From: Papiliotrema nemorosa
Taxonomy: Eukaryota > Basidiomycota > Tremellomycetes > Tremellales > Rhynchogastremaceae
Direction: 5' to 3'
Assembly: GCA_032158125.1 (NCBI GenBank)
Contig: JASKOT010000026.1
Coordinates: 124,001 to 188,000, forward strand
Length of the DNA: 64,000 nucleotides
Shown: piece by piece, positions 14,232 through 25,282 of the stretch
Position numbering within the stretch: the first letter of the stretch is position 1
Layout of the letters: the number at the start of each line of letters is the position of its first letter
Position numbers and translations under genes: made by a program
Notes under the pieces: model-generated
What the model saw: only the letters and a program-made list of their open reading frames with translations
The model's database searches: none
What the model was told of the DNA's origin: nothing

Positions 14232-14762
14232 GGCTGTACAGTGTAGCCTGATATGTAGCTATTAAGACTCGATGTGGGAAGCGGGGGAGGCGAAGAGGGA
14301 TAGATGGTGGTGTGAAGGGAGTGAGAGCCTTAGGCTACCTCGGTGGAGGTGAGTGTGATTGGTTTGCTTCTCCAGCTGACGCAGTCTACAGCTCTTGCCG
14401 AGCTGCGGGAACTCGCGAGCACCGATAGCGAGTACTATTGGACAGTAAGGCGGGGGATCGAGCTGTTGCTCGAGGATGGGAGAAGGCGCAATGGAGGGGT
14501 GGGTTATGGTGTCAACAGACGGAAGGAGAGGGGGGCACTTAGGGGGGGGGGGGGAAAGAGAAGGGCCGCCATCACCGTGGGAAAGTTGAAACAGCAGGGG
14601 TGACGAGGGAAAGGCGGACATTCCCGAGTATCGGTGGACGGAGATTTGACTCATCTCCGCGCCGGTTACTGCTATTCTGTCTGACCCGGGGCAACGATGC
14701 CCAAGCAATACAACCACGAACGTCCTCTAGACAGCAGACAACAACCTGATCGTGTCGATAAG
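14232..14762. other. Divergent promoter region SIN3 / enoyl-CoA isomerase
   Basis: This segment separates two divergently transcribed starts and must hold both promoters. It contains a run of 13 G at 14542-14554 and is purine-rich on the plus strand around it. An in-frame upstream ATG at 14697 could extend the downstream protein by 22 residues. Confidence 0.5.
14542..14554. repeat. Poly-G tract (13 G)
   Basis: Thirteen consecutive guanines lie on the plus strand in the SIN3/isomerase divergent promoter. Such tracts are length-variable and hard to sequence, so the exact number may be uncertain. Confidence 0.9.
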
Positions 14763-15754
14763 ATGACAGCCAGCAGCGCCACAACTCTCAGTCGACCCCA
14801 TCCGGCAGTATGGCAGATATCTCTCACCTCTCCACCCGACCATCGACTCACACCCGAGCTATTCGCCTCCCTCTCTGAAAACCTGGACATTGTCGAAGCG
14901 GAATGGCGAAAGTCTAGTGGGAAGAGGGACAAACAAGGTCCAATGTCTGATCCAAAGACTTTCGGTGAACATAGAGGAGCCGGAGCATTGATACTCACTG
15001 GGAGCGAACGTTTCTTCTCCAATGGATTGGATTATCAGAAATCGATGGAGAACCGGTTCTTCTTCGAGGGTGAGTCGTCTGATTCCCCCAGATTCTCAGC
15101 TTATCAGGCAGAGGTTTATGACCCTGTCTTGTATAGGCTGTTGACTTTTCCCCTGGTGACTATAGCAGCGATCAACGGACACGGTAAGGACACCCGGCTA
15201 TTTCGAGGCGAGACACTGATCAATAGCGTTCGCGGGCGGTTTTGTGCTCGCCATGGGGTGTGATTTCCGGCTGATCACCTCTGGCAAAGGCTTGATGTGC
15301 ATGAACGAGGCAAGTATCTCAACTCCTATTACTGCCTAAAGCACTAACGGCCGCAGCTCGTCTTCGGTTCTCCCATCCCAAACTCTTTCTCGTCCATACT
15401 TCGTGCCAAGATCACGAACCCGGCTGATCTGCGCGACACAATGCTCGCAAAGCGGTGGACTCAAGACGAGCTACTGAAAGCCGGTCTAGTGGACGGAGTG
15501 GTTAGTCCCGACAAATTGCTAGAAGTGGCCACGGAGACAGGGGTCAAGGAAGGAGCCAAAGTCGGCGCAGGAGCTTGGGGTGCCATCAAGGTGCGCAACT
15601 CAAACAGACGGATCCGTGCTCGTTTGCTGACGTCTAGGACGGCTTGTATCACGATATCATTGACGCCTCGAGGTCTTTTAGGCCAATCTATTTCCCCAAG
15701 CACGAGGCGGAAGCCTTCTGGAAACGAGTCGGAAAGGAAAGGGCAAAGTTGTAG
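14763..15754 (+). CDS. Peroxisomal enoyl-CoA isomerase/hydratase family protein
   Basis: Five exons (14763-15069, 15112-15183, 15227-15309, 15357-15590, 15638-15754) encode 270 residues. The crotonase-fold signature is visible as AAINGHAFAGGFVLAMGCDFRL, the region that forms the oxyanion hole, preceded by ALILTGSERFFSNGLDY. The protein ends in Ala-Lys-Leu, which fits the C-terminal peroxisomal targeting signal 1, so it probably isomerises or hydrates enoyl-CoAs in peroxisomal beta-oxidation. The sequence alone does not decide isomerase versus hydratase. The intron at 15310-15356 has a GC donor (GCAAGT). I chose the ATG at 14763 because family similarity begins shortly after it; an in-frame ATG at 14697 is the alternative. 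Confidence 0.85.
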
Positions 15755-22493: not shown

Positions 22494-22851
22494 TCAATCA
22501 TCCCTCTTCCAAGGATGACCGCCACCTATCAGCATCAGCCATGAAGTTCAAAGCGAGATGAATGTAACCTACAAATCGAAAGCCAGCATTGTGCTGATGG
22601 ACCAGAAGGTGTAGGCGAAGGTGGAGGGGTTTCAATCGATGTCTCTCGGTCTTCCCGCTTCCATGGGTATCCTCCACCTGGATCATTCAGTCTCAACTAT
22701 TGATGCCGGATTTGGACGCACATCGTGATCCCCAACATTGGGCTTCTGGACCGGACGGCTCAGCAGCGGGCGCTAGTATATCGTCTGGGATAGGTGCAGC
22801 AATGCCCAAAGCGGCTCCGAATATGAGAGAGATGGCAGCGAAGAATCTCAT
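22494..22851 (-). CDS. Secreted two-repeat peptide precursor with Kex2-type sites
   Basis: Three exons (22851-22722, 22677-22573, 22525-22494; introns of 44 and 47 nt, both phase 1) encode 88 residues. Residues 1-19 form a signal peptide (MRFFAAISLIFGAALGIAA). Two repeats follow: PSGPEAQCWGSRCGGYPWKRED and, to the stop, PSGPSAQCWLSICGGHPWKRDD, joined by a Thr/Pro-rich spacer. Each repeat ends in Lys-Arg, the Kex2 cleavage site, and each core begins after an X-Ala/X-Pro stretch suited to dipeptidyl aminopeptidase trimming. The predicted cores are 12-residue peptides with two cysteines four residues apart and a C-terminal Pro-Trp. Both introns split the second Cys codon (T|GT) of their repeat. 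Without splicing the frame stops after 52 residues. I infer a secreted signalling peptide; a ribosomally made natural product is an alternative. Confidence 0.78.
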
Positions 22852-22933: not shown

Positions 22934-22940
22934 TTTATAT
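22934..22940 (-). promoter_or_regulatory. TATA box of the two-repeat peptide gene
   Basis: ATATAAA on the minus strand, about 85 nt upstream of the ATG at 22851, in a position like that of the TATA box of the other peptide gene. Confidence 0.5.
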
Positions 22941-24974: not shown

Positions 24975-24982
24975 TATATAAA
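24975..24982 (+). promoter_or_regulatory. TATA box of the 43-residue peptide gene
   Basis: TATATAAA lies about 85 nt upstream of the ATG at 25067, followed by an A/C-rich leader without upstream ATG. This is a strong core promoter for the window and suggests high or inducible expression. Confidence 0.65.
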
Positions 24983-25066: not shown

Positions 25067-25282
25067 ATGAATTTTGCTGCGCTCTTTGTCCTCGTCGGCA
25101 CTGCCATCACCGCTTTGGCTGCCCCTGCCCCTGTTGCTCAACCCGAGCCAACCGTTGAGGCTCAAGGATGGTGGGGTCAAGGAGGTAAGTCACCTCAACA
25201 CCTCGTCACTTCGCTAGCGCCCCCAGCTTTGCCTTCGTTTCACAGGGACCAGACGCTAACGATCCCAGGACGACCCTACTAG
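25067..25282 (+). CDS. Secreted short peptide precursor, Qsp1-like ending
   Basis: Two exons (25067-25184, 25269-25282) with an 84-nt intron (GTAAGT donor, CTAAC branch, CCCAG acceptor) give 43 residues. Residues 1-19 are a signal peptide (MNFAALFVLVGTAITALAA), then a Pro/Ala/Glu propart, then QGWWGQGGRPY at the C-terminus. The last 11 residues resemble the Cryptococcus quorum-sensing peptide Qsp1 (NFGAPGGAYPW) in length, in the aromatic-Gly start, the Gly-Gly and the Pro-aromatic end. The phase-1 intron falls directly before GRPY, as the introns of the divergent peptide gene fall before GG(Y/H)PW. The intron length is a multiple of three, so unspliced RNA would encode a longer protein of 71 residues with the same end. 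The function is inferred. Confidence 0.7.
   Translation: MNFAALFVLVGTAITALAAPAPVAQPEPTVEAQGWWGQGGKSPQHLVTSLAPPALPSFHRDQTLTIPGRPY

Follow-up and report, generated by a model that had tools for sequence, protein, structure and literature searches.

To our knowledge, few peptide signals of basidiomycete yeasts have been described outside mating. In style, the described peptide closest to the gene pair reported here is possibly Qsp1 of Cryptococcus neoformans, a short secreted 11-mer without Cys that ends in Gly-Gly followed by Pro and an aromatic residue and that is the one C-terminal peptide of a small precursor. Two further types of system are comparable in layout. Kex2-processed repeat precursors (KEPs, the type of yeast alpha-factor) combine a hydrophobic start, repeats, and a dibasic site per unit, while ascomycete alpha-type pheromones are short peptides freed by KR cuts that contain Q, W, and a Cys pair. 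Kex2/Kex1 processing is the established basis for the KR cut and for the trimming of basic residues. The basidiomycete mating scheme consists of a STE3 receptor and a CaaX pheromone, and multi-copy lipopeptide precursors are known from red yeasts.

Here, we describe a gene on the minus strand (22494-22851) of a 64,000-nucleotide stretch of Papiliotrema nemorosa DNA, the whole of which is called the window. Its predicted product appears to work like a Kex2-processed repeat precursor, but differs from KEPs in having only two units, in having introns that interrupt each unit within its second Cys codon, and in lacking a Pfam family match. The earlier note on this DNA had proposed that a dead-end frame of 52 residues becomes an 88-residue precursor through two introns (22678-22721 and 22526-22572). 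We reproduced this from the sequence, and translation of the spliced frame gave the same coordinates, residues, and two units. The unspliced frame from the ATG at 22851 stops after 52 amino acids; removal of the two short introns (44 and 47 nt) joins three exons into an 88-amino-acid product that consists, in order, of MRFFAAISLIFGAALGIAAPIPDDILAPAAE, PSGPEAQCWGSRCGGYPWKRED, RETSIETPPPSPT, and PSGPSAQCWLSICGGHPWKRDD. The two 22-residue units are PSGPEAQCWGSRCGGYPWKRED (unit 1) and PSGPSAQCWLSICGGHPWKRDD (unit 2), and the stop codon is 22494-22496. The features of this gene are as follows, with the coordinates of the repeat units obtained by counting:

22934..22939, minus strand: TATAAA, starting 88 bases before the ATG
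22722..22851, minus strand: exon 1, with the hydrophobic N-terminus, a spacer, and the start of unit 1 up to the T of its second Cys codon
22678..22721, minus strand: intron 1, 44 nt, GTGCGT...CAG, phase 1, CTGAA 13 nt before its end
22573..22677, minus strand: exon 2, with the remainder of unit 1 (GGYPWKRED), the spacer RETSIETPPPSPT, and the start of unit 2
22526..22572, minus strand: intron 2, 47 nt, GTAGGT...TAG, phase 1, CTGAT 13 nt before its end
22494..22525, minus strand: exon 3, with the remainder of unit 2 (GGHPWKRDD) and the stop codon
22649..22758, minus strand: repeat unit 1, PSGPEAQCWGSRC^GGYPWKRED, with intron 1 inside
22497..22609, minus strand: repeat unit 2, PSGPSAQCWLSIC^GGHPWKRDD, with intron 2 inside

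The pattern of silent changes, the placement and sizes of the introns, and a scan of intron pairs make it very likely that the minus-strand gene is real, spliced, and selected for its peptide. The two units are identical at 17 of 22 residues although they differ at 21 of 66 bases, with 5, 3, and 13 differences at codon positions 1, 2, and 3, respectively. Fifteen of the 22 codons differ, 10 of them silently and five with replacement of the residue; dN between the units is 0.17, and the silent sites are too diverged for an estimate (NG86). When 21 changes were placed at random, none of 20,000 trials reached 17 kept residues (mean 9.2, maximum 15). Among 1,461 intron-spanning peptide pairs from both strands of the window (626 plus and 835 minus), the two units scored best, at 12 of 17; the runners-up reached 6 with other introns and 7 when the same introns were read in a different frame, and the highest score among 50 shuffled sequences (one strand of each) was 7. 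The spliced, repeated precursor with dibasic sites that had been proposed is borne out by these residue identities and by the scan, as well as by the dibasic Kex2 site, PWKR, present in both units. Introns 1 and 2 split the second Cys codon of their units at the identical base, after its T. That both introns sit at this same place is most likely the result of a duplication that copied a single unit along with its intron.

The introns also resemble those of an ordinary gene in the window. In the gene for enoyl-CoA hydratase, which begins at 14697, introns of 96, 43, 47, and 47 nt were picked by eye, one with a GTGCGC donor; with these removed, a single open frame is left, and its Pfam score is 60.1 bits, up from 27.6 bits for one unspliced frame. 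Intron 1 of the peptide gene matches introns of this gene in size and donor class. A CTRA-type motif stands 13 nt before the end of every intron of both peptide genes (CTGAA, CTGAT, and, in the neighbour described below, CTAAC). A GC-AG intron was also observed in the hydratase gene (window 15310-15356; GCAAGT...CAG, 47 nt).

A second small gene, absent from the earlier note, lies 2.2 kb away on the plus strand (25067-25282), in divergent orientation. After removal of an 84-nt intron, its 43-residue precursor is MNFAALFVLVGTAITALAAPAPVAQPEPTVEAQGWWGQGGRPY, which ends in EAQGWWGQGGRPY. The acceptor was picked from five for its CTAAC at -13 and for the resulting tail, and the other four give different tails. 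The features of the neighbour are:

24975..24982, plus strand: TATATAAA (TATA box), starting 92 bases before the ATG
25067..25184, plus strand: exon 1, MNFAALFVLVGTAITALAAPAPVAQPEPTVEAQGWWGQG and base 1 of the Gly codon that follows
25185..25268, plus strand: intron, 84 nt, GTAAGT...CAG, phase 1, CTAAC 13 nt before its end
25269..25282, plus strand: exon 2, which completes GRPY, then the stop codon

Comparison of the two precursors suggests that the neighbour makes a peptide related to the Cys units, in which case both genes would be paralogous members of one family. An alignment of the precursors covers the shorter one completely (BLASTP E 0.001 in a single comparison, 19 invariant columns), but part of this match is the hydrophobic start, where many secreted proteins resemble one another (11-residue mean hydropathy peaks at 2.35 in the minus-strand precursor and 2.51 in the neighbour). 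For the parts after the signal region, the alignment score was reached by 24 of 10,000 shuffles. The likeness of the mature peptides alone is weak, with 974 and 441 of 5000 shuffles scoring as well when the Cys units are compared with the neighbour. All three units have an (E/S)A-Q context in common; the neighbour peptide is Cys-free and Gly-rich and keeps only EAQ of the shared unit context. Its intron has the same phase and lies one to two codons later than in the Cys units, a distance that depends on the alignment. The TATA boxes stand at -88 in the minus-strand gene, -92 in the neighbour, and -98 in the CaaX precursor described below; TATAWA occurs 20 times on the two window strands, and about 1 in 200 31-base stretches would hold one by chance. 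The promoters of the two peptide genes have 10 9-mers (4.7 expected) and two 10-mers (1.1 expected) in common and no common 11-mer, so their comparison gave nothing convincing beyond the TATA box.

Protein searches of the genome for further copies returned the known exons only. A pattern of AQCW followed by a C before the donor matched the two units only, and matched once in the reversed control. The looser AQ[CG]W pattern, which is blind to the plus-strand gene with its later donor, found one extra place on C8 that we took as chance (reversed control, 1 and 1). The pattern GGxPWKR found, besides the two units, a single stretch on C54 (59337-59356, plus), and nothing in the reversed control. 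That stretch reads GQGGRPWKR and then a stop, and its letters resemble the neighbour peptide; it was provisionally set aside, as by eye there is no secretion signal or EAQ upstream and about 0.6 chance matches are estimated for the pattern in the genome. Neither precursor matched a Pfam family, and the minus-strand precursor had no relative in the PDB (one match at E 1.4 was taken as chance). Viral contigs, a poor place to look, yielded no homologue. Rfam gave 0 matches in the window, and tandem and dispersed repeats around the gene pair included nothing relevant. As both precursors lack a Pfam match and the minus-strand one also lacks a PDB match, the gene pair is possibly novel among described peptides.

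The likeness to Qsp1 that the earlier note had drawn holds for the GG-Pro-aromatic end, whereas similarity by letters is weak: of 5000 shuffles, 43 scored as well against Qsp1 as Cys unit 1, 845 as well as Cys unit 2, and 4728 as well as the neighbour peptide, whose likeness to Qsp1 by letters appears to be nil. No uninterrupted stretch coding for GGAYPW turned up in the genome. In layout, the minus-strand gene differs from Qsp1 in its two units, its two Cys per unit, and its KR sites, while the layout of the Qsp1 family, a single peptide at the C-terminus, is that of the plus-strand neighbour. The gene pair is possibly Qsp1-like.

Taken together, we consider it on balance probable that the spliced precursor gives rise to secreted, Kex2-cut signalling peptides of a quorum or density type, with a paralogue as its neighbour. 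The hydrophobic start would route the minus-strand product into the secretory path, a kexin would cleave each unit behind its Lys-Arg, and these two basic residues would then be removed by a carboxypeptidase. The genome encodes a P domain of the kind typical of kexins, which makes the KR cut plausible. Further cleavage or trimming in the (E/S)A-Q context, directly ahead of Gln, would free QCWGSRCGGYPW and QCWLSICGGHPW, each a 12-mer closed by a six-residue Cys-x4-Cys ring and perhaps starting with pyroglutamate. Animal Cys-x4-Cys hormones of the vasopressin and urotensin type have a six-residue disulfide ring like the one predicted here, in which an aromatic residue likewise follows the first Cys, a likeness of shape only that implies no relation. 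The neighbour gene would yield its peptide, probably QGWWGQGGRPY, directly at the C-terminus without a dibasic site. The role of these peptides would be extracellular signalling between cells, of a quorum or density type rather than in mating. OPT oligopeptide transporters, reportedly the uptake route of Qsp1, account for 26 matched stretches in the genome, and one such gene (C26:48629-50677) was observed about 96 kb from the peptide pair, whose contig it shares.

The start of the mature peptides may be placed differently. The spacer after the first KR (EDRETSIE...) has no X-Ala/X-Pro ladder, so yeast-style dipeptide trimming would not reach Gln, and either an endoprotease acting at Ala-Gln or a longer product from PSGP is therefore possible. 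It is conceivable, if doubtful, that maturation leaves the entire KR-bounded stretch, or 18 residues from PSGP, and that the product does not start at Gln. Indeed, the kept unit starts at PSGP, six residues before Gln; however, EAQ is all that the neighbour retains of that context.

The same precursor and processing could also serve another target, with the products being secreted antimicrobial or toxin-like peptides or peptides that act on a host or competitor. Short peptides rich in Trp and closed by a Cys ring are able to act on membranes, and the differences between the units at ring positions (G/L, R/I) and at Y/H would suit diversification against several targets. Such a function is nonetheless unlikely: the units have few charges, they keep a core that includes both Trp and the GGxPW tail, and their relative next door is Cys-free and Gly-rich.

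We regard as very improbable here a mating pheromone of the alpha-factor type that would act through a Ste2-type receptor. The earlier note had pointed to alpha-type pheromones, and of this likeness the layout stands: a putative secretion signal, KR-bounded repeats, an A-Q start, and the Q, W, and Cys pair of some ascomycete alpha pheromones. The putative Cys-x4-Cys ring, the GGxPW tail, and the basidiomycete-type mating genes of this genome set the locus apart. A search of the genome for STE2 gave no match, though control genomes gave none either. In contrast, matches identify three STE3 receptor genes (six matched pieces; C17:167511-168160, C17:177119-178075, and C4:347218-348218), two of them about 9 kb apart on C17. 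Adjoining one of these on C17 is a plus-strand CaaX precursor (C17:176176-176421) composed of MVSAAYIAASAPGQTD and then three copies of EYVNPLFIKPSIGCVI(S/A), ending in CVIA. This three-copy precursor occurs at one place in the genome and has a TATA box 98 bases before its ATG; a pattern search of three loci gave no second intronless CaaX precursor. The minus-strand peptide precursor ends in PWKRDD, unlike the CaaX end of lipopeptide pheromones. The STE3 receptors and the three-copy CaaX precursor, found away from the contig of the peptide pair, can account for mating, so that the pheromone is probably encoded elsewhere and not by the Cys-unit precursor.

A dikaritin-type ribosomal cyclic-peptide pathway, in which a UstYa oxidase would introduce cross-links in place of the disulfide, is likewise highly unlikely. 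Kex2-bounded repeat precursors are substrates of that pathway, and the UstYa oxidase as a rule adjoins the dikaritin precursor; however, the genome gave no UstYa match (nor did the control genomes), and the neighbouring frames with Pfam matches are ordinary. The window holds 140 stop-to-stop frames of at least 110 amino acids, or 78 after overlaps were dropped, and 20 of these were scanned with Pfam. Ten had matches, all ordinary: enoyl-CoA hydratase, UIM, exonuclease, class I tRNA synthetase (two pieces), PAH, Sin3 co-repressor, peroxin-3, WD40, and Zn-cluster (just under the cut-off). No peptide-modifying enzyme was among the 20 scanned frames. Finally, that the 52-residue frame or non-coding DNA merely happens to splice into a repeat is a negligible prospect, even with a single genome examined, as the random placements and shuffled sequences all fall far short of the observed units.

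Returning to signalling peptides as the preferred reading, the gene pair may constitute an undescribed chemical signalling system. Such genes are easily missed, since without splicing the frame ends after 52 residues. If the pair is real, it provides defined peptides of 11 and 12 residues that can be synthesised and tested at once, with an internal comparison of two peptides and an adjoining paralogue. We tentatively suggest, while holding it to be a less than even prospect, that the divergent pair belongs to a basidiomycete family of secreted signal peptides outside mating, with Qsp1 as one member of a wider, diversifying family. If so, one gene would produce two 12-mers with a Cys ring each, whose differences at ring positions could allow them to be read apart, and the other a Cys-free 11-mer.
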